From: Oscillospiraceae bacterium
Lineage (GTDB): Bacteria; Bacillota; Clostridia; Oscillospirales; Acutalibacteraceae
Direction: 5' to 3'
Assembly (NCBI GenBank): GCA_015065725.1
Contig: SVPV01000001.1
Span: forward strand, 1 to 64,000
DNA: 64,000 bases
Part shown: one piece after another, positions 28,754 through 40,071 of the stretch
Layout: the number at the start of each line of letters is the position of its first letter
How positions within the stretch are numbered: position 1 is the first letter of the stretch
Program-made: the position numbers and the translations under genes
The notes under the pieces: generated by a model
Seen by the model: the letters and a program-made list of their open reading frames with translations, nothing else
Databases searched by the model: none
What the model was told of the DNA's origin: nothing

Positions 28754-28782
28754 TTGATATAATAAAAAATGTTTGGTATAAT
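28754..28782 (+). promoter_or_regulatory. sigma-A-type promoter of addBA
   Basis: TTGATA-N17-TATAAT. Confidence 0.65.
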
Positions 28783-28813
28783 TAGAATACTAAAAGTCTT
28801 GGAGGATGGAAAG

Positions 28814-31800
28814 GTGTTAAGATTTATCTTTGGTGTGGCTGCAACAGGCAAAACCTCAAAGGTTCTCGAATTAATAAAAAATGATGCCGAAAAGGGTAAA
28901 AAAGCTGTTCTTATAATTCCCGAACAGTTCTCATTCCAAAGTGAACGCTCGGTTTTAAGACTACTTGGCGACAATATGGCAAGCAGGGTTGAGGTTTTAA
29001 GCTTCAGCCGTATTTGTGATGCCGTAGAACGCTTAACGGGCGGTATTTGCGGTAAAAATCTTTCCGATGCAGACAAGCTTATTTTAATGTGCAGGGCAAT
29101 AAAACAGTCAGCAGATGAGCTTGACGTCTTTGGCAGATATAAAAATTCTATAGGCTTTGCAAGGGCAATGCTTGAAACGGTTGATGAATTCAAAACAAAT
29201 TCCGTTACACCCGATGAGTTACTGGAAGTAGCCGACAAATACGCCAATAAAACCCTGTCTTTAAAGCTTCGGGATATTGCTATAATATACCAAAACTACG
29301 ATATGATTATAGGGCAAGAATTTATTGACCCTACCGACCGCCTTGCAAAGCTTTACGACCGCCTTTTAAAGTGCAAATATTTTGAAAATAAAACTGTTTA
29401 TTTGGATTCTTTTAAAGGTTTTACGGGACAGCAGTTTAAAATAATAGACCGTATACTCTCACAGGCTGATGACGTTTATATAAGTTTTTCGTGCAATTCT
29501 TCTCCTGATACGGAATTCGACCTTTTTAGCAATATTAGAAAAACAGTAAACCGCATAAAAAGTAGAGCCGAAGCTTACGGAAAAGCTTTGGGCGAGGATA
29601 TTGTACTTCAAAATGACTTTTATGCTTCTCGGTCTATAGCGGCTATAGAAAAGCTTTTGTCGGGCAGTAAAAAAGTCGCTTTTTCGGGTGATGATACCGT
29701 CACAGTTTGCAGTGCCGATACCGTTTATGACGAAGCCGAGTTTGCCGCACGCACCATAAGAAGATTAGTGCGTGAAAACAAGGATTTAAGATACAGAGAT
29801 ATAGTAATAATTGCGAGAGATACCGCTCTTTATGAGGAGGCGGTAATTTCCGCATGCCGTAAAAACGGCGTTTTCTGTTTTGTAGATAAGCGTTATCCGC
29901 TTGCCGATTTTCCTCCCGTTGCCGCAACCCTTGCCGCAATAGATGCAGTAAATAGATTTTCGGCAGAGGCAATTTTACGGTTTTATAAAACGGGTATTGC
30001 AACTATAGACGCACAAGAACTGTCAAAGCTTGAAAATTATACATATATTTGGAATGTTGACGGAAAGCTATGGACTAAAGAATGGGATATGAACCCGAAA
30101 GGCTTTATGGCGGGCGAAATAAGCGAGTCGGATGATTTAGAGCTTCAGTCAATAAATAAAACAAGGGCTTTGCTTATTACCCCCTTTAATGAATTTAAAA
30201 ATGATTTTAAAGGTAATGCTAAAAACAGAATAAAAGCAATTTTAAAACTTTTCTCACACGTTAATGCAAAAAAAGCACTTAAAAATATGTACGATATTTA
30301 TTCCGAAAATTTTGATGCTACATACAAGGATGCACTTTTGCAGTCGTGGGATATGCTAATGTCGGTTTTCGACAGTATTGCCGACTGTTTGGGAGACAGT
30401 GATATTTCCACAAAGGAATTTACAGAAATTTTGCGTGCGGCGGTTAGCTGTGAGGCTATAGGTGTAGCACCACAAATGCTTGACGAGGTAACCTTTGGTG
30501 CGGCTGACAGAATACGACCGTCAAGACCTAAAGTGGCGTTTATATTAGGTGCTAATCAAAATCTTTTCCCAAAAAGCTTTTCGCATAGCGGTTTGCTTGC
30601 AAATTCTGAAAGAGAGCAGCTAATAAATTCGGGTATAGAGATTTCCGACCACGCTTTAGAGGAAGCTATTGACGAGGAATTTTTGGTTTATACCAATGTT
30701 TGTTGTCCTACGGAAAGGCTTTTTATATGCTATCATAATATGGATAGCGAGGACAAGCCCTCTGAACCGTCTGCCTTTGTGGGTAGAATTTTGGAAAATA
30801 TCTGCCCCGTAAAAACTAATGAGCCTAAACGGCTTGATAAAACAAATCTGCCCGAAACTGCAGAGTCTGCTTTTGCCGATTTTTGTAAAGCACTCGGAAG
30901 AAGTAGAGAGGACGCCGTACGGATAGGTGCCGCCGTTTCAGAAATCCCTGAATATAAGGAGAAAATCGAGGTTGTAAAAAACGGCTACTCTAATAGGGAT
31001 ATGTCGATATCTACTGATGCCGCACAAAAGCTTTTCGGTAACAATATAAAAATATCTCCCTCTAAATTAGATGTATTTATGCGTTGCAGTTTTTCGTATT
31101 TTTGTAAATACGGGCTTAAAGCAAAAAAACTTCAGCCTGCCGAATTTGACGTAATGCAAAGAGGTACTATTGTACACTATGTTTTAGAGCGTATTGTAGA
31201 GGATTATAAGGAAACCATAGCCGAATTTTCGGAAGATAAAATTTCAGAGCTTGTAGATTTTTATATAAATGAGTATTTAAATAGTATCAGAGGCTATAAA
31301 AGTGTAGAAACCGCCCGTATGCGTTACCTTGTGTTTACCATTTCACGCTCGCTTAAAGAGGTAGTTTCAAGGCTTTCAAAAGAGTTTGCACAGTCAAAGT
31401 TTAAACCCATAAGATGCGAACTTTTAATAGGCGGCGACGAGGTACCGTCCCCCGAAATACTAATCGGTGAAAACAAAAAAATATCGGTCGAGGGCGTTGT
31501 AGACCGAATGGATATATGGAACGGTTATGTCCGTATTGTTGACTATAAAACAGGCAGTCGAAAGTTCCGCTTGCCCGACATTCTTGTCGGTCAAAATATG
31601 CAGATGCTAATTTACCTTTACGCCATTGTCAAAAAAGGTGCCTTTGCCGATAATAAGCCTGCAGGAATATTTTATATGCCATCTCGCCGCGACCTTAATA
31701 ATACGGGTATGCGTATGGACGGCTTGGCGGTTGAAAATCTAGAAACCGCAAACGCTATGGAAAGTGAAAACGCGGGTGAATTCGTACCGCCGCTTAAATA

Positions 31801-32080
31801 TAATAAAGAGGGCGAAATTCACTATCATAGTAAAAATTCTTTTATACCCGAAACGGATTTCCAGACCGTTTTCAAACATATTGAAAACACACTTTACAAA
31901 ATGGGCGATAAGCTATCACATGGTGATTTTGCTGTAAATCCCGTAGACGGATTAGACAGTCCTGCCTGCAAATACTGTGATTTTGCATCGGTTTGCGGAA
32001 TAGAGGATAAGGTAGTAGAGTGTGTTAATTCGGTATCCAACAGAGAGGTTATTGATATAATAAGAAAGGAGTGCGAATAA
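28814..32080 (+). CDS. addB: ATP-dependent helicase/nuclease subunit B
   Basis: FIFGVAATGKTSKVLE; C-terminal Cys cluster; GTG start at 28814 after ggaggatggaaag. Confidence 0.95.
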   Translation: MLRFIFGVAATGKTSKVLELIKNDAEKGKKAVLIIPEQFSFQSERSVLRLLGDNMASRVEVLSFSRICDAVERLTGGICGKNLSDADKLILMCRAIKQSADELDVFGRYKNSIGFARAMLETVDEFKTNSVTPDELLEVADKYANKTLSLKLRDIAIIYQNYDMIIGQEFIDPTDRLAKLYDRLLKCKYFENKTVYLDSFKGFTGQQFKIIDRILSQADDVYISFSCNSSPDTEFDLFSNIRKTVNRIKSRAEAYGKALGEDIVLQNDFYASRSIAAIEKLLSGSKKVAFSGDDTVTVCSADTVYDEAEFAARTIRRLVRENKDLRYRDIVIIARDTALYEEAVISACRKNGVFCFVDKRYPLADFPPVAATLAAIDAVNRFSAEAILRFYKTGIATIDAQELSKLENYTYIWNVDGKLWTKEWDMNPKGFMAGEISESDDLELQSINKTRALLITPFNEFKNDFKGNAKNRIKAILKLFSHVNAKKALKNMYDIYSENFDATYKDALLQSWDMLMSVFDSIADCLGDSDISTKEFTEILRAAVSCEAIGVAPQMLDEVTFGAADRIRPSRPKVAFILGANQNLFPKSFSHSGLLANSEREQLINSGIEISDHALEEAIDEEFLVYTNVCCPTERLFICYHNMDSEDKPSEPSAFVGRILENICPVKTNEPKRLDKTNLPETAESAFADFCKALGRSREDAVRIGAAVSEIPEYKEKIEVVKNGYSNRDMSISTDAAQKLFGNNIKISPSKLDVFMRCSFSYFCKYGLKAKKLQPAEFDVMQRGTIVHYVLERIVEDYKETIAEFSEDKISELVDFYINEYLNSIRGYKSVETARMRYLVFTISRSLKEVVSRLSKEFAQSKFKPIRCELLIGGDEVPSPEILIGENKKISVEGVVDRMDIWNGYVRIVDYKTGSRKFRLPDILVGQNMQMLIYLYAIVKKGAFADNKPAGIFYMPSRRDLNNTGMRMDGLAVENLETANAMESENAGEFVPPLKYNKEGEIHYHSKNSFIPETDFQTVFKHIENTLYKMGDKLSHGDFAVNPVDGLDSPACKYCDFASVCGIEDKVVECVNSVSNREVIDIIRKECE

Positions 32081-35000
32081 TGGCTTTTAACCCTACTTAT
32101 GAGCAGGATTTAGCAATAAACGCTAAGGGCAACGTGCTTGTTTGTGCCGCCGCAGGCTCGGGTAAAACCGCAGTTTTGGTTGAGCGTGTTATTCGTATGC
32201 TTACCGACAGTTCGCACCCTGTTTCAGCCGACCGACTGCTTATAGTGACCTTTACAAATGCCGCCGCCGCAGAAATGCGTTCAAGAATTGAAAAGCGGCT
32301 TTATGAAGAAACGCTTAAAAATCCCTTTGATTTGGCACTAAAAAAGCAAAAATATCTTATTTCCTCGGCTAAAATATGTACTATCGATTCCTTTTGTATA
32401 GATTTAGTAAGAAGTAATTTTGATAAGCTTGGCATAAATCCCGACTTTAAAATTTCCACTGCCGAAAATTTGGAAGCAATTTCAAATAGGATAGTAAACT
32501 CGGTGATTTTAGAGCAAATGGAAAATGGTGGTAGGGAATTTTACAGTCTTTTAGAGCTTACAGGGTGTGAATATGATGAATCGCGTCTGGCGACCGCTAT
32601 AAGAAGTATTTTTAATTATAGTCAGGTAACACCTTTTCCGCAAAAATTTTTAGAAATCTTGACACTAGGCTATCAAACCGAATTTTCAAAGGGAAATATT
32701 TGCTTTGATAGGGCAATTAGTATTGCACTGGAAAAAACCGAGAATATAAACGGTATGATTTTAGCAGGTCTTGATGCCTCAAAGCAATTAGGTGAAGAAG
32801 CCGAGAAGCTGCAAGCTTATTTTGATGCCTTTTGTGAGATTAGCGATAAACTTTTAATGACGGTACAAAATGGGGATTGGAACACCATAAGAAAGGCGTT
32901 TACAGATTTTATAATGCCGCCCATACCTAGAATTCAAAAGTTTAAAAGTTTGCCCGAAATTACCTTAATGCGAGAAATTCGCGAGGCGGTTTTAAGCGAA
33001 AGAGATGCTTTGCTTAATATTTTCTTGGCAGAAAGGGAAGAAATCGAGAGGAAAAACAGGGAGATTTATCCTGCGGTTAAGCTGCTTGTTGAATTGGTAT
33101 GCCGCTACAAAGACGAGCTTTTTAAGGCTCAGCTTGAAGAAAACAGCCTTACCTTTTATAACACCGAGCAGTTAGCACTAGAGCTTTTATGCCATAGCGA
33201 CAGTGACGGAAATATTGTTATAAACGACGGTGCCGAGGAGATTTTTTCACAGTTTGACGAGGTGCTTGTTGACGAATATCAAGACGTAAACGATTTGCAA
33301 AATATGCTTTTCTATGTTCTTTCAAATCGTGAGCATAAGCTGTTTGCGGTGGGCGACGTAAAGCAGAGCATTTATGGCTTTAGAGGTGCTAATCCCAATA
33401 ACTTTTTAAACAAGAAAAACCGATATAAGCCTATTAATATGGCGGATGAGAATGAATCTAAAAAGGTTATTCTTGCCAATAACTTCAGAAGCAGAGCCGA
33501 GGTCTGTGATTATATAAATTTCTTTTTCGAGAATATTATGACCGAGGAAAACGGCGATATTGTATATGATAGTGAGGAGAGGCTGGTAGCCTCTAACAAG
33601 CAATTTTCGACGGTAGACCTTCCTTTGAACCGACTTTGTGTTGTGGATAAGTTATCTAATAGCGAGGACGACCGCTTGACAGTTGAGGCAGACGTTATAG
33701 CTATGCAGATACGCAAAATTATGTCTTCAGGCGAGTGTATTCACACTAAAGACGGCGGACTTCGCAAAGCAGAGTATTCCGACTTTGCGATACTTCTTCG
33801 TGCTACCGATAAAACAGCGGCAAAGCTTTCGGCAGAGCTGGAAGCGGAGGGAATTCCCGTAAACTGTGCTAATGATAGCTTTATAGAGCTTTTAGAGGTT
33901 GATACTTTCTTGTCGCTTTTAAAAATCATTGATAACCCTGCCGATGATATTGCACTTTTAACGGTGCTTATGTCACCGATTTTTGAGTTTACTGCAGAAG
34001 AGCTTGCTAATATACGGGCAGAGCATAAAAATGGAGATTTAATAGCCGCAATTTCACTCTTTCGGGATAAAAATTCTAAAGTAGCAAAGTTTTACAAGGC
34101 ACTAGAACTCTACCGAGCCGAAGCCTCTGTTTTGCCGCTTAAAAATTTCGTGTTTAAGCTTATAAATATTACGGGTTACGGTGATATCGTGTCGGCTATG
34201 TCGGACGGTATGAGAAGAAAGGCTAATCTTTTAAGACTTGCGGAGTATGCCGCATCTTATAGCGATGCTTACGGAAATTCAATTTCGGGGTTTGTTAACT
34301 ACATAAAAAATGTGGCAGGCAGTAAGCTTTCGTCTGCAAAGGTGACCTCGGGTTCAGACTCTGTGCAGATTATGAGTATTCACGCCTCAAAGGGACTGCA
34401 GTTCCCAGTATGTATTCTCGCTAATATCGATTCTAAAATTAATATGCGGGATAGCAGTGACTCAATGCTCTTTTCGGAAAATATAGGCATAGGCTTTAGG
34501 TACTTTGATGAGCAACAAAAAAACCGCGTAGACAGTATTGAGCGTGTTTTAATATCCGAAGAAATGCGTATAAAGACCCTCGAAGAAGAACTACGCCTTT
34601 TGTATGTTGCTATGACCAGAGCAGAGGATATGCTGATTATGGTCGGTGCATATAAAAATCTTCAAAAAAAGCTAGGGGAACTCTCGGCAAAGCTTATAAG
34701 TGAGGGCGGCAGAATAGGTAAACGCTCTTATGGCTCGGTGTCCTCCATAGGTGACTGGATTTTAATGACCTCGCTTATTCACAAGGACGGTAAAAAACTT
34801 CGGGTTTATGCGGATGTTTCACCCACTCTTGCAGAGTCTGACTCAAATATCGAAATAGAGATTATCGCCGCTAATGGAATTGAAAAAAATCCGCTTTCTA
34901 AGGCAGAGGTCGAAACTTTTGAGCCTGACGATTTTATTAAAGAACAAATTTTATCTAATATGCAGTATAAATACCCTTATGAAGCTTTAAAGGATATAGA

Positions 35001-35595
35001 GGCAAAATGCTCGGCATCAATGCTTAACAATAAAGCAGAGGGTGATAAATACGCCTTTTCAAGCCGTCCGTCGTTTATGGAAGACGACGGCATTACAGGT
35101 GCCGACAGGGGAACTGCAATGCATAAAATTATGCAGTTTATAGACTTTGAGGCGACAGATGTCGGAGAGGAAATTGAAAGACTAAAAGAATGGGAATATA
35201 TATCCGAGTTGGAGGCAAATGCGGTAGATAAGGCCGCTATAGAAAGATTTTTCTCAAGCGATGTTTTCTCGCGTGCAAGAAACTCTAAATACTGCCGACG
35301 TGAAATGCGATTTTTAACCGAAGTTTCGGCAGGTAGTATTGACAGCACCTTAAAATCTCCGCTTTGTGAAGAAAAAATTATAGTACAGGGTGCGGTTGAC
35401 CTCTGCTTTTTAGAGGACGACGGTGTTGTTATACTTGATTTTAAGAGTGATAGGGTTGACAATCCCGAAGCCTTAAAAGCCGCCTACAGCGAACAGCTTA
35501 ATATATATGAAAAAGCGGTAGAAAAAATCTTTTTAAAGCCTGTTAAGGAAAAAATAATTTATTCCTTTTCACTAGGTTCTGAAATTAAAATTTAA
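32080..35595 (+). CDS. addA: ATP-dependent helicase/nuclease subunit A
   Basis: VCAAAGSGKTAVLVERV, UvrD-like motifs; start overlaps addB stop (TAATG). Confidence 0.97.
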   Translation: MAFNPTYEQDLAINAKGNVLVCAAAGSGKTAVLVERVIRMLTDSSHPVSADRLLIVTFTNAAAAEMRSRIEKRLYEETLKNPFDLALKKQKYLISSAKICTIDSFCIDLVRSNFDKLGINPDFKISTAENLEAISNRIVNSVILEQMENGGREFYSLLELTGCEYDESRLATAIRSIFNYSQVTPFPQKFLEILTLGYQTEFSKGNICFDRAISIALEKTENINGMILAGLDASKQLGEEAEKLQAYFDAFCEISDKLLMTVQNGDWNTIRKAFTDFIMPPIPRIQKFKSLPEITLMREIREAVLSERDALLNIFLAEREEIERKNREIYPAVKLLVELVCRYKDELFKAQLEENSLTFYNTEQLALELLCHSDSDGNIVINDGAEEIFSQFDEVLVDEYQDVNDLQNMLFYVLSNREHKLFAVGDVKQSIYGFRGANPNNFLNKKNRYKPINMADENESKKVILANNFRSRAEVCDYINFFFENIMTEENGDIVYDSEERLVASNKQFSTVDLPLNRLCVVDKLSNSEDDRLTVEADVIAMQIRKIMSSGECIHTKDGGLRKAEYSDFAILLRATDKTAAKLSAELEAEGIPVNCANDSFIELLEVDTFLSLLKIIDNPADDIALLTVLMSPIFEFTAEELANIRAEHKNGDLIAAISLFRDKNSKVAKFYKALELYRAEASVLPLKNFVFKLINITGYGDIVSAMSDGMRRKANLLRLAEYAASYSDAYGNSISGFVNYIKNVAGSKLSSAKVTSGSDSVQIMSIHASKGLQFPVCILANIDSKINMRDSSDSMLFSENIGIGFRYFDEQQKNRVDSIERVLISEEMRIKTLEEELRLLYVAMTRAEDMLIMVGAYKNLQKKLGELSAKLISEGGRIGKRSYGSVSSIGDWILMTSLIHKDGKKLRVYADVSPTLAESDSNIEIEIIAANGIEKNPLSKAEVETFEPDDFIKEQILSNMQYKYPYEALKDIEAKCSASMLNNKAEGDKYAFSSRPSFMEDDGITGADRGTAMHKIMQFIDFEATDVGEEIERLKEWEYISELEANAVDKAAIERFFSSDVFSRARNSKYCRREMRFLTEVSAGSIDSTLKSPLCEEKIIVQGAVDLCFLEDDGVVILDFKSDRVDNPEALKAAYSEQLNIYEKAVEKIFLKPVKEKIIYSFSLGSEIKI

Positions 35596-35677: not shown

Positions 35678-35706
35678 TTGACATAAAGCCCGACAAGTTA
35701 TATAAT
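35678..35706 (+). promoter_or_regulatory. Consensus sigma-A promoter
   Basis: TTGACA-N17-TATAAT. Confidence 0.85.
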
Positions 35707-35740
35707 GTAAATGTTATATTATGTAGTAAAGGGGAATAGT

Positions 35741-37519
35741 ATGTCCAAATTTGTAAGGGTTTTTTGTATAATCCTGTCACTTGTTTTACTATTGTCTTCA
35801 AATATATTAAAGGCCCAAGATTTACAAACTGCCTACATAAACGGTGATAATGTTAATATCCGTACCGAGCCGTCACCTTCGGCTGATAGTCTTGGTAAAA
35901 TAAACTTTGATAACGTAACTTTGCTTGGCGAAACGGCACAAGTGCAGGGTATGGAATTTTTATGGTATAAGATACAGTACGGCAGTAAAACAGGTTGGCT
36001 GTATGGGCATCCTGAGTGGTTTTCTATAAATACACCTCCGCCAACTCCAACGCCTGAAGCCAATGCCACTTTTGAAGAACAGCTTAAAGCTTTCCCCGAA
36101 AGCTATCACCAATCACTTCGCAAACTTCATGAGAGATATCCAAACTGGAAGTTCGTTGCCGACAACATCGGTTTTTCTTTTGATAATGCTGTGGATATAC
36201 AATATCTCAATTACAAAAAGCATGTTGAACTAAGTCAAGGTATTGCTTGGCGTTCGCTTAGAGGCGATGTGTATAACTGGCAGACAGGTCAGTGGAAAAT
36301 CCTTGACGGTGACAGGTGGGTTGCCGCTTCAAGAGAAGTAGTAGCTTACTATATGGACCCTAGAAATTTCCTTAACAGAAGCTCGGTTTATATGTTTTTA
36401 AACCAGTCTTACGATGCTGCTAATCATACCGAAGAGGGACTTTCAAAAATAATTGCAGGCACCTTTCTTGCTAACAATTACACCCCAAATCCCAACAGCG
36501 AATATGACAAACAGTGTGGCGGCTCATACAGTAAGGTTATAATGCTAGCGGCAGAGCAGTCGGGTGTTAGTCCATATATTATTGCATCAAAAATTATTGT
36601 AGAGCAGGGTAATGGTACATCTTCGCTTATATCGGGTAATTACCCGGGTTTTGAAGGTTATTATAACTTCTTTAACTGGGGCGCTTACGGTGTGGGTGAT
36701 GCTGCTATAATCCAAAACGGACTTAGTACCGCAAGGTCAGAGGGTTGGAACTCTCGTGCCGCGTCAATAATAGGCGGTGCTAAAAAGTTGGCTGACGGAT
36801 ATATAAATAACAGGCAACATACCTACTACTATATGGCGTTTAACCTTTTAAATCAAAATTATAACCATCAGTACGAATCGGCTATTTATGCGGCAAATAA
36901 CAAGGCAAAGAATATGTCTACTGCTTATGCTACTAATTATGAGGCTCCGCTTGTGTTTAATATACCTGTTTATACCTCTATTCCAAATGAGGTTTCAACT
37001 AAAGCAGAAGCAGGCGATAACAGATACAATAACTATTATTTAACCCAAATGAATGTCGGGGGATTATCACCTGCTTTTAGTATGTTTAACCAAAGCTATT
37101 CGCTAAATGTTTCGGGTGATACCACTATTTATGTTAGTGTGCCCGATAAGGCTTCAATTGTGTCACCGCTACAAACGGCTATAAACCCAGGTGATAACAA
37201 TGTCTATATTACCGTAAAAGCAGAGTCGGGATTTACTAACACCTATACGGTTAAGGTGACTTCCAGCGTAGCGTGTACTATTACAGTTTCTACCGATACC
37301 CCACCGGCACCAGTGGCAAAAAAAGGCGATATAAACGGCGATACATTTATTAACTCAACCGATATTGCAGCAATAAAACTGCATATGTTTGGTATTAGAA
37401 CCATTACCAAAGGTACAGAACAGTGGGATGTAGCAAATATAAACGGCGATGAAGATATCAACTCAACCGATATTGCAGCAATAAAATTGCATATGTTTGG
37501 TATTAGATATATTGAATGA
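35741..37519 (+). CDS. Secreted SH3b / glucosaminidase-like cell-wall hydrolase with Cadherin-like domain and C-terminal type I dockerin
   Basis: Signal peptide, SH3b, LytD-like core (SGVSPYIIASKIIVEQG...), then GDINGDTFINSTDIAAIKLHMFGIR ... ANINGDEDINSTDIAAIKLHMFGIR. Confidence 0.85.
   Translation: MSKFVRVFCIILSLVLLLSSNILKAQDLQTAYINGDNVNIRTEPSPSADSLGKINFDNVTLLGETAQVQGMEFLWYKIQYGSKTGWLYGHPEWFSINTPPPTPTPEANATFEEQLKAFPESYHQSLRKLHERYPNWKFVADNIGFSFDNAVDIQYLNYKKHVELSQGIAWRSLRGDVYNWQTGQWKILDGDRWVAASREVVAYYMDPRNFLNRSSVYMFLNQSYDAANHTEEGLSKIIAGTFLANNYTPNPNSEYDKQCGGSYSKVIMLAAEQSGVSPYIIASKIIVEQGNGTSSLISGNYPGFEGYYNFFNWGAYGVGDAAIIQNGLSTARSEGWNSRAASIIGGAKKLADGYINNRQHTYYYMAFNLLNQNYNHQYESAIYAANNKAKNMSTAYATNYEAPLVFNIPVYTSIPNEVSTKAEAGDNRYNNYYLTQMNVGGLSPAFSMFNQSYSLNVSGDTTIYVSVPDKASIVSPLQTAINPGDNNVYITVKAESGFTNTYTVKVTSSVACTITVSTDTPPAPVAKKGDINGDTFINSTDIAAIKLHMFGIRTITKGTEQWDVANINGDEDINSTDIAAIKLHMFGIRYIE
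37352..37507 (+). repeat. Dockerin-encoding duplicated 48-bp units
   Basis: 37352-37399 and 37460-37507 identical at 47/48 nt; the single difference is synonymous. Confidence 0.9.
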
Positions 37520-37529
37520 GGTGTTATAA

Positions 37530-39044
37530 ATGAAAAAAATAACTAAAATTTTATCTTTAATTATAATTTCAATAATTGTTTTATCACTTTTCTCTTTTAA
37601 TGTTTCAGCGGCAAGTTGCAGTTCAAGTGCATCAAAAAGCAAATTTGTCGTTGGCGATACAGTAACCATAACTTTTAATTATTCTTCTGATGTTCCAATT
37701 TATGCTGCAGAAGGTACAGTTTCTTTTGATTCATCAAAACTTCAATTTAAATCTGCAAATATTGAAAACACCCCATCAGCATCAAGTGTTTTTTTTATTG
37801 ACGATCAACTTTCAACAGCAACAAAAAAAGTTTCTAAAGGCACATACAGTTTTGTTTTCACTGCTATCGCAGACGGTACTGCGACTGTTAATATAAATAT
37901 GTTTGCCAACAACGACCAATTGCAACAACTACCTGCAACCGCTAGTCATTCTGTTATCATAGAAAAACCTGCACCAAAATCCAGTAATGCAAATCTTTCC
38001 TCACTTAAGGTAAACGGTGCTACAATTTCACCTGCATTTAATTCTAATACCACAAGCTATACTGCCGAGGTTCCTTTTGAAACCGAACAGGTTTCTATTT
38101 CGGCAAACGCTGTGGATAACGGTACATTTACAGGCGGCGGTACATTTAATCTTAAGGTGGGCGAAAACGTTCGCTATATAAAGGTTACCGCTGAGGATAG
38201 GTCTACTACAAAAACATACAAGCTTACTATTGTGAGAGCTGCAGAGGACCCCGAAACTCAAAAGCTACTTAATGTTCAAATCGACGGTGCGGATTACAGA
38301 ATAGTTACCGAAGCTCCCGTTTCTCCGCTTACAGGCTTTAATGTTACTACCGTTAAAAGAGGTAATATAGATGTTTCTGTAATGCAGACAGAAGACGGCA
38401 AGCTTAATATATATACACTAAAAAATGTCGGAGACGAAAATACCGATTACTATATTTATAATGAGGACGAGGACAAGTTCCAACTCTTACCTTATGCTAT
38501 AATCGCGGAAAGAATGTATATATTTGCAAATCAAAAGGATTTAGCCGCAAAGGGTTATACAAAAACAACTTTAAGTATCGGCAACTCGACGGTTGATGCT
38601 TTTGTGTCAGAGAATGAAAAGTTGTTTGATTTTTATATACTTTATTGTTATCTAGACGGTAAGGGCAGTTACTATAGCTACGATACGGTTGAAAACACAA
38701 TGCAGCGTGCTCCTGCATTCCAAACAGTTTCGATAGACGACATTAAGGAAAATGATAAGGCTGATGATGATAAGCAGGTAATAAGCTCTGTTAAAGATGT
38801 GTTTAAATTAGGTGCAAAAGCAAAGGCTATTATTATTGTTGTTGCAGTAATTATAATGTGTGTAATCGCACTTATTGTTTTGCTTATTGTAAGACATGTA
38901 AAACTACACAAGCTTGACGATATGGACGAATTTGGTTTTGATGATGAGGAAGCCCTTTTCGATGAAGTTAATATTTTAGATATGGCACAAAACGATAGTG
39001 TTTCTAATGAGATTGAACCCGAAGAGCAAGATGTAGAAGAATAG
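37530..39044 (+). CDS. Membrane-anchored cohesin-like protein with Cadherin-like domain, TM helix and acidic cytoplasmic tail
   Basis: Signal peptide; VGDTVTITFNYSSDVPIYAAEGTVSFDSSKLQFKSANI...GTYSFVFTAIADGTATVNI cohesin-like pattern; LSSLKVNGATISPAFNSNTTSYTAEV Cadherin-like; C-terminal TM. Confidence 0.75.
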   Translation: MKKITKILSLIIISIIVLSLFSFNVSAASCSSSASKSKFVVGDTVTITFNYSSDVPIYAAEGTVSFDSSKLQFKSANIENTPSASSVFFIDDQLSTATKKVSKGTYSFVFTAIADGTATVNINMFANNDQLQQLPATASHSVIIEKPAPKSSNANLSSLKVNGATISPAFNSNTTSYTAEVPFETEQVSISANAVDNGTFTGGGTFNLKVGENVRYIKVTAEDRSTTKTYKLTIVRAAEDPETQKLLNVQIDGADYRIVTEAPVSPLTGFNVTTVKRGNIDVSVMQTEDGKLNIYTLKNVGDENTDYYIYNEDEDKFQLLPYAIIAERMYIFANQKDLAAKGYTKTTLSIGNSTVDAFVSENEKLFDFYILYCYLDGKGSYYSYDTVENTMQRAPAFQTVSIDDIKENDKADDDKQVISSVKDVFKLGAKAKAIIIVVAVIIMCVIALIVLLIVRHVKLHKLDDMDEFGFDDEEALFDEVNILDMAQNDSVSNEIEPEEQDVEE

Positions 39045-39061
39045 TATGATATAAAAAAATT

Positions 39062-39092
39062 ACGTGTGACCATTGGTCACACGTGATTTTTT
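39062..39092. terminator. Bidirectional intrinsic terminator
   Basis: acgtgtgacc-att-ggtcacacgt + T7. Confidence 0.9.
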
Positions 39093-39105: not shown

Positions 39106-40071
39106 TTATTGTTTTTCGAGAGCTTTTATTTGACGAATGTCAGCACCGATAAATTTCTTAGCAGTATAGTTGCCTATAAATCTTGAAGAAATACGCGGGC
39201 TGTAGCGTTTTTCAATATCCGCCATAGTGAGATTTGTATTTATAATGGTAGGACGTCCCGATAGTATTCTCGAGTTTACAAGTCCGTAAAGGACAGACTG
39301 TGTAAAGGCTGTCACAAATTCTGTACCAAGGTCGTCGATTACCAATAGGTCACACTCAAGCATATTTTCGTAGCTGTCGCCCTTTATGGACGAAAAATGC
39401 TCATTTTCAATCATAGAAAACAGATTATAAGCCGAGCCGTAAATTACGTTATAGCCTTTTTTTATAATTTCGGATACTACCGCTAAGGTAAGATGTGTTT
39501 TGCCAAGTCCCGAATCACCCATAAATAAAAGGTTTTTGGAAGATTTAGGGTTAAAATTATCTGCATACTCGCGGCAAAGCTTTAATATTGCGGTCATTCT
39601 TTTTTGAGGATTAGCACCTTCGGTGTTATCAATGTTTTGATAATAGTTAAGATTAAAATTATCAAAACGACTCTCTTTAATAGGCATATCTGCCGAAAGC
39701 TCATTGATTGCAATTTCTTTTATTTTTTCCTTTATGCAACTGCAAAGTCTTCCGTCTATATATCCTGTATCTTTGCATTTTTCGCAGTCGTAAACAATTT
39801 CGGGAATCTTAAATTTTGATATAATTGACCTCTTTTTCTCGGTAAGGCAGGTCATTTCATTCTGGATTTTTTCAAACTCTGCCTTATTTCCTGAAAGTGC
39901 GGTAATAGCAATTTTAGCACCCAAAGCGGAAAGACGGAAATCTATATCACGAAGCTGTGGCTCAGCATCATATGCCGCCGCCAACGACCGCTCGTACAAG
40001 GCGGTCTTTTTTGCAAGTATAGACTTCTTTTCTTCAAGGGCGGTTTTATACAATTCCTCGGTTTTTAACAT
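39106..40071 (-). CDS. DnaC/DnaI-like helicase loader ATPase
   Basis: LLFMGDSGLGKTHL Walker A; VIDDLGTE Walker B; Cys motif CEKCKDTGYIDGRLC. Confidence 0.88.
   Translation of the reverse strand: MLKTEELYKTALEEKKSILAKKTALYERSLAAAYDAEPQLRDIDFRLSALGAKIAITALSGNKAEFEKIQNEMTCLTEKKRSIISKFKIPEIVYDCEKCKDTGYIDGRLCSCIKEKIKEIAINELSADMPIKESRFDNFNLNYYQNIDNTEGANPQKRMTAILKLCREYADNFNPKSSKNLLFMGDSGLGKTHLTLAVVSEIIKKGYNVIYGSAYNLFSMIENEHFSSIKGDSYENMLECDLLVIDDLGTEFVTAFTQSVLYGLVNSRILSGRPTIINTNLTMADIEKRYSPRISSRFIGNYTAKKFIGADIRQIKALEKQ

Follow-up and report, generated by a model that had tools for sequence, protein, structure and literature searches.

A putative cohesin-dockerin tether for a SagB-like cell-wall glucosaminidase in Clostridia

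Two adjacent genes in a 64,000-nucleotide stretch of DNA from an Oscillospiraceae bacterium (the window; GCA_015065725.1, contig SVPV01000001.1) probably make up a small operon that encodes a private cohesin-dockerin tether, in which a SagB-like glucosaminidase (P1) would be held at the membrane by the second gene product (P2) and would act on the cell's own nascent peptidoglycan. Several computational lines support the tether reading, namely the predicted domains and folds, the pairing of the two genes across lineages, the symmetry of the dockerin and its co-variation with the cohesin. Physical binding, its calcium dependence, the enzymatic activity, the substrate (the cell's own nascent strands) and a role of the cytoplasmic tail are what we infer. 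According to the proposed scheme, P1 would be secreted and its C-terminal dockerin would plug into the cohesin at the N-terminus of P2. A single transmembrane (TM) helix would hold P2 in the membrane, with the cadherin-like and third domains serving as a stalk. Kept near the membrane, P1 would most likely trim or release newly made glycan strands of the bacterium's own peptidoglycan. By analogy with SagB scaffolded by SpdC, control of strand length or of the release of new peptidoglycan appears to be the most likely role of the pair, and we give it about an even chance.

Table 1. Positions of the predicted features of the P1-P2 locus in the window
Feature	Position	Strand	Basis
Promoter-like site TTGACA-17-TATAAT	35678..35706	+	12/12 match (sigma-70-type), 17-nt spacer; sequence read directly
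Gene 1 (P1), predicted secreted SagB/AtlE-type glucosaminidase with C-terminal dockerin, 592 aa	35741..37519	+	ORF, Pfam, profile, model
P1 signal peptide, residues 1-25, A25 inferred cleavage site	35741..35815	+	Sequence; A25 nearly invariant
P1 bacterial SH3 domain, residues 36-89	35846..36007	+	Pfam SH3_3 29.2 bits; 25/27 homologues match
P1 glucosaminidase core, residues 105-415	36053..36985	+	SagB profile match; Foldseek; E288 invariant
P1 Glu288 codon, inferred catalytic	36602-36604	+	E288 invariant, 45 sequences
P1 Cadherin-like beta-sandwich, residues 436-508	37046..37264	+	Weak Pfam; 23/27 homologues match; strands in model
P1 type I dockerin, residues 528-590	37322..37510	+	Pfam 37.6 bits; profile matches 1ohz, 2ccl
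P1 dockerin loops	37328-37363 and 37436-37471	+	Sequence
RBS-like GAGGTG, overlaps P1 stop codon	37518..37523	+	Sequence read directly
Gene 2 (P2), predicted membrane-anchored single-cohesin protein, 504 aa	37530..39044	+	ORF, Pfam, AlphaFold2, Foldseek
P2 cohesin domain, residues 29-145, nine modelled strands	37614..37964	+	Pfam sub-threshold; AlphaFold2; Foldseek
P2 Cadherin-like domain, residues 156-236	37995..38237	+	Pfam 42.8 bits; 28/28 homologues
P2 third extracellular beta domain, residues 245-395	38262..38714	+	Confident model; alignment
P2 transmembrane helix, residues 429-463	38814..38918	+	Model helix; hydropathy
P2 acidic cytoplasmic tail, residues 464-504	38919..39041	+	Sequence
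Terminator-like stem-loop (stem-loop 39062-39084), T-runs on both sides	39062..39092	.	Sequence

Domain architecture of the two proteins

An earlier, sequence-only reading of this DNA had described two open reading frames 10 nt apart, bounded by a consensus promoter and a terminator, and all of these elements were recovered (Table 1). The P1 stop codon is overlapped by the ribosome-binding-like site, as in a linked operon. An alternative in-frame ATG for P1 is found at 35711. The terminator-like stem-loop is common to gene 2 and a convergent gene (39106-40071), and both this gene and two large genes on the 5' side (28769-35595) lie outside the proposed unit.

P1 consists of a signal peptide, an SH3b domain, a glucosaminidase core, a cadherin-like sandwich and a dockerin, and has no anchor of its own. 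This is the domain order given by the sequence-only reading, and each of its elements held up. The SH3_3 score is above the Pfam cut-off of 27, whereas the Cadherin-like domain of P1 itself scores 16.7 bits against a cut-off of 24.2 and is backed by homologues and by the modelled strands. The Glucosaminidase score is likewise under the curated cut-off (18.6 against 30.2 bits), yet the best PDB match of a profile built from 45 P1 homologues is SagB (6u0o_B, from the SagB-SpdC crystal of S. aureus) with an E-value of 1e-32, followed by 6fxp, 6fxo and autolysin E. The AlphaFold2 model of P1 (mean pLDDT 89.7) retrieves the same AtlE-type and SagB enzymes in Foldseek (6fxo, 6u0o_B, 6fxp). Because of these profile and model matches, the assignment is secure despite the low Pfam score. 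Glu288 is invariant in 45/45 sequences and aligns with the glutamate of the SagB LLETG stretch; from what is known of the family, it would be the catalytic residue. Judged by its predicted fold and the invariant glutamate, the core is a SagB/AtlE-type (GH73-like) glucosaminidase.

The C-terminus of P1 scores well above the Dockerin_1 (PF00404) cut-off of 22.9, profile comparisons with solved dockerins such as those listed in Table 1 point the same way, and 27/27 homologues match the family. Its F-hand calcium loop is duplicated, both copies (DINGDTFINSTD and NINGDEDINSTD) carrying recognition residues, and STDIAAIKLHMFG occurs twice. By profile score and loop duplication it is predicted to be a type I dockerin, in agreement with the two-repeat dockerin originally proposed. 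Dockerin recognition has been assigned to positions 10, 11, 17 and 18 (PMC4081043); what we call recognition positions are these four plus neighbouring helix positions, the latter being our own extension. Among 56 non-redundant P1 dockerins, loops 1 and 2 agree at the recognition positions with a value of 0.80 compared to 0.26 for shuffled loops (the highest among 10,000 shuffles being 0.34), and framework positions 1, 4, 5, 8 and 12 of the same dockerins show no excess agreement. In the window, 65 of the 72 DNA bases of the two loops are identical, so that in this particular P1 part of the symmetry comes from a recent duplication or conversion event. Conversion by itself would not account well for the pattern across the relatives, which is specific to certain positions.

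P2 begins with a signal peptide, as had been noted before, and continues with a cohesin-like domain, a cadherin-like domain, a third beta domain, one TM helix and an acidic tail. The N-terminal domain scores 20.8 bits against Pfam Cohesin (PF00963; E 4.7e-4), just under the cut-off of 24.1, and at E-values up to 1 just 12/28 P2 homologues match this family; by sequence alone the domain of the window protein may be called 'cohesin-like'. Some relatives exceed the cut-off (28.8 bits in locus L086 and 66.9 bits in L200). In the AlphaFold2 model of P2 (mean pLDDT 81), the domain is a nine-strand beta-sandwich, for which the top Foldseek structure is 2w1n, a cohesin-FN3 construct of C. perfringens (E 3.9e-7), with 2jh2 and 4ums further down. 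A PDB search with the single P2 sequence gave no cohesin match, whereas the profile of 28 homologues matched solved cohesins at E-values of about 1e-5. The modelled domain has the nine-strand fold of cohesins, and a cohesin-like domain is what the sequence-only reading had anticipated. Non-cohesin beta-sandwiches are also present in the Foldseek list, as expected for such folds; the first rank belongs to a cohesin.

The Cadherin-like domain of P2 passes its Pfam cut-off. The third domain matches no Pfam family, either in P2 or in its homologues; it is confidently modelled and carries a conserved YRYDTxExTxQR-like motif. The single TM helix already recognized in the window protein is found by hydropathy in 66 of 68 P2 homologues. 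The acidic tail was also correctly described for the window, but its suggested coupling to intracellular machinery does not extend to the family as a general property: the tail is acidic in 47/66 homologues and basic in 11, and a general signalling role for an acidic tail was rejected.

Conservation of the pair and fit between dockerin and cohesin

When 300 genomes of the family were searched with P2, full-length homologues were found in about 28, nearly all of them immediately 3' of a P1 homologue that carries a dockerin. A second, independent search, which had the P1 alignment as its only seed and covered 85,462 species genomes, yielded 80 named loci, 73 of them usable. P2 lies immediately 3' of P1 in 55 of the 73, P1 has a dockerin in 52 of these 55, and a cohesin is detectable in 49 of the 52; the gaps between the genes are mostly shorter than 60 nt. 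The pair occurs in Oscillospiraceae, Lachnospiraceae (Roseburia, Blautia, Parasporobacterium paucivorans), Pseudoflavonifractor and some 'Bacilli' MAGs, these lineages being taken from record titles, which may err (one reads Muribaculaceae). The homologues share about 30-45% of their residues with the window's P1 and 23-32% with its P2, and the outer neighbours are homologous in 33/2016 (1.6%) and 77/1891 (4.1%) locus pairs. In other words, the pair has been kept while its surroundings changed, which bears out the earlier expectation that the two genes are co-conserved. A contig scan seeded with P2 alone found no match. Strict co-occurrence of the dockerin and P2 had to be dropped, as the association of dockerin presence with P2 adjacency among the named loci falls short of significance (Fisher p 0.058). 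The reason lies in 14 loci, mostly of Ruminococcus, where P1 has a dockerin and no P2 next to it, and in three Lachnospiraceae loci (L120, L149, L157), where P2 is kept and P1 has no dockerin.

The two partners also appear to be matched to one another. In partial Mantel tests, the dockerin recognition residues track the neighbouring P2 cohesin (partial r 0.257, p 0.0002), a modest correlation obtained with a linear control for phylogeny. They do not track the P2 cadherin-like (0.066) or third domain (0.070); nor is the P2 cohesin tracked by the dockerin framework residues (0.058) or by the P1 glucosaminidase core. Loop symmetry is higher in P1 dockerins with a P2 neighbour than in those without one (0.83 versus 0.49, p 1.2e-4). 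Three loci (L092, L093, L163) have another beta domain, common to all of them, in the place of the first P2 domain, and out of 81 pairs these and no others have a dockerin of the DYxxxKNxIM type; the core and third domain of L163 are closest to other lineages. At one further locus (L140), P1, a cohesin-LRR-dockerin adaptor and P2 are arranged in series.

Alternative readings

P1 might instead dock on a general scaffoldin or on another cohesin, with P2 receiving different cargo and adjacency reflecting co-expression. The genome itself offers such opportunities. It has 12 dockerin places, whose cargo includes GDSL, transglutaminase, LRR, phosphoesterase and other proteins, and 4 single-cohesin places, so that three further cohesins (C17, C21 and the C13 protein) could also receive P1. 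A P1 paralogue with 85% DNA identity over the enzyme bears a dockerin of the common type, which suggests that the same enzyme can go to two addresses, and the Ruminococcus dockerins without an adjacent P2 point in this direction as well. However, the recognition residues of P1 are unlike those of the 11 other dockerins, 10 of which mostly pair one ILD(Y/F)I-type with one NDLVxxKKxLL-type loop. Together with their co-variation with the adjacent cohesin, which extends to no other domain of P2, and with the joint switch of receptor domain and dockerin type in three loci, this makes docking elsewhere improbable. Even less credible, and in our opinion very unlikely, is the idea that the presumed cohesin of P2 is no more than a generic beta-sandwich spacer and that P1 retains its dockerin as a relic. 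The sub-threshold Pfam score of P2 and the minority of homologues matching PF00963 would fit such a view, but cohesins head both the structure matches and the PDB profile search, relatives exceed the cut-off, and the recognition residues are maintained in step across both dockerin halves.

A different possibility accepts the tether and places the enzyme's action elsewhere, on glycans of other bacteria, the host or the diet, or in sporulation or lysis. The relatives come mostly from animal guts, and the same family of anchors adjoins other surface cargo (subtilase, LRR/Big proteins). On the other hand, the fold and profile of the core are those of the wall enzymes SagB and AtlE, accompanied by an SH3b domain, a single TM helix as membrane anchor is more in keeping with a target in the cell's own wall, and short P2-like genes adjoin polysaccharide deacetylases in Ruminococcus. 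We consider an external or developmental target rather unlikely and prefer the reading of P1-P2 as a tether serving the bacterium's own peptidoglycan.

Relation to known systems and wider occurrence

Cohesins and dockerins are known mainly from fibre-degrading complexes, yet dockerins without an assigned function also occur in many gut bacteria that have no cellulosome. A conserved pair of wall-enzyme cargo and membrane socket would provide a concrete, testable job for such dockerins, and the dockerin-cohesin plug seems to serve also the housekeeping of the bacterium's own wall. The genome studied here has no combination of a multi-cohesin scaffoldin with cellulase cargo, the hallmark of a cellulosome. 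P1-P2 shares the cohesin-dockerin principle with the anchoring scaffoldins of cellulosomes, but lacks their multiple cohesins, their SLH or sortase signal and their cellulase cargo. The non-cellulosomal pairs of C. perfringens (NagJ cohesin, 2jh2/2ozn) likewise operate outside cellulosomes, and their cohesins are among the solved ones closest to P2; there, however, both partners are secreted glycoside hydrolases, whereas the putative P2 cohesin is part of a membrane anchor encoded beside its presumed cargo.

In S. aureus, SagB is scaffolded by SpdC and cuts nascent glycan strands (PMC10581084). SagB-SpdC (6u0o) resembles the proposed P1-P2 tether in that a glucosaminidase of the same fold is held near the membrane by a membrane partner. 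The differences are that SagB is itself membrane-associated whereas P1 is predicted to be secreted, and that SpdC is a CAAX-protease-like integral membrane protein whereas P2 is a predicted single-pass cohesin protein. P1-P2 may thus represent a second design for keeping a SagB-type enzyme at the membrane. We dropped the idea that P2 replaces SpdC: the SpdC-type family PF02517 is found in none of the proteins of the window's MAG, but in all 46 of 46 relatives searched, with or without the pair.

A TM-anchored cohesin partner, which the sequence-only reading had put forward as unusual, is not in itself new, since single-cohesin proteins with a C-terminal TM helix, the arrangement of P2, are a known type of anchoring scaffoldin (PMC11557425). 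In the passages of that cellulosome survey considered here, their partners are unclear and neither a wall enzyme nor a conserved two-gene unit is mentioned. What appears to be new is that a cohesin anchor is paired with a SagB-like wall enzyme, and how widely this pairing occurs. We found no description of the P1-P2 pair in a search of mainly open-access literature, nor is it described in PMC5814915, PMC10266427, PMC12997984 or PMC5817068. The natural series of matched lock-and-key variants could be useful for engineering orthogonal pairs.

Shorter relatives of P2, composed of cohesin, cadherin-like domains and a TM helix, adjoin other dockerin cargo in about 10 of 21 loci examined, including subtilase, polysaccharide deacetylase (divergently oriented), LRR and Big-domain proteins and P1-like cores. 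A more tentative proposal, which we consider less likely than not, is that P2-type single-cohesin anchors form a general docking system of the Clostridia envelope beyond cellulosomes, that lock and key are exchangeable as a unit (including the non-cohesin receptor of L092, L093 and L163), and that the dockerins of Ruminococcus albus, a species called 'cohesin-deficient', have their missing receptors in the short P2-like proteins. In R. bicirculans and in three strains of R. albus, P1 has a dockerin and no adjacent P2, and the same genomes encode a short P2-like protein at another site, next to a polysaccharide deacetylase. According to a survey of genomes, R. albus 8 has no cohesin and strains 7 and SY3 have one each (PMC4081043). 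The first domain of the Ruminococcus short P2-like proteins scores 52-65 bits with our own cohesin profile, compared to at most 7 for shuffled controls, which makes the R. albus protein a candidate cohesin missed by that survey and a candidate answer to where the R. albus dockerins bind.

Variation of the glucosaminidase-anchor pair

The secreted glucosaminidase (P1), which ends in a type I dockerin, has a paralogue in the same genome. In their enzyme parts the two genes are 85% identical in DNA across 1431 bp, the similarity stops ahead of the dockerin, and the dockerin of the paralogue belongs to the genome's common type. No gene for P2, the single-pass membrane protein with a cohesin-like domain, adjoins the paralogue.

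Departures from the P1-P2 pattern are also found in relatives. At a three-gene locus, dockerin-bearing P1 is followed by an adaptor, which carries a cohesin, LRR and a dockerin of a different kind, and then by P2. In three Lachnospiraceae loci (L120, L149 and L157), P1 is without a dockerin, yet the adjoining P2 has retained its cohesin.

Domains of P2

In three loci, P2 begins with a different beta domain, common to all three and not recognized as cohesin, and their P1 proteins have in common a DY-type dockerin signature. It is possible that this domain represents another dockerin receptor. The third domain of P2 is conserved, with the motif YDxxExTxQR, and matches no Pfam family.

Positions of features (G000, the window's own genome, with its contigs; L, loci examined)
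Feature	Window or G000	Locus	Strand
P1 paralogue	C4:45718-48441	L085:3719-6442	
Further adjoining pair	C17:89604-92201	L076:5605-8201	
BspA-type LRR protein and LRR-dockerin protein	C21	L079:4356-9046	
195-aa cohesin protein	C13	L078:7527-8114	minus
Three-gene locus		L140:5001-9367	
P2 with other first domain		L092:6629-8110, L093:4414-6057, L163:6982-8424	
P2 third domain	window 38262-38714		
Short P2-like proteins		L172 (R. bicirculans), L173 (R. albus 8), L174 (R. albus KH2T6), L175 (R. albus AR67)	
Short P2-like anchors		L086, L191, L192, L193, L195, L197, L198, L208, L209, L210	

Other cohesin and dockerin genes

The window's own genome holds a further adjoining pair, in which a cohesin protein of 393 aa comes first and a transglutaminase-like protein, whose dockerin is marginal, comes next. 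On C21, a 1211-aa BspA-type LRR protein bearing cohesin and dockerin together precedes the LRR-dockerin protein (352 aa). The 195-aa protein combines a clear cohesin with an N-terminal hydrophobic helix and is perhaps another membrane-anchored single cohesin, of reversed topology.

The four short P2-like proteins consist of cohesin-like, cadherin-like and TM parts, and a polysaccharide deacetylase gene adjoins each of their genes; a published report (PMC4081043) counts no cohesins in R. albus 8. The short P2-like anchors adjoin other dockerin proteins, namely subtilase, polysaccharide deacetylase, LRR/Big and P1-like cores.
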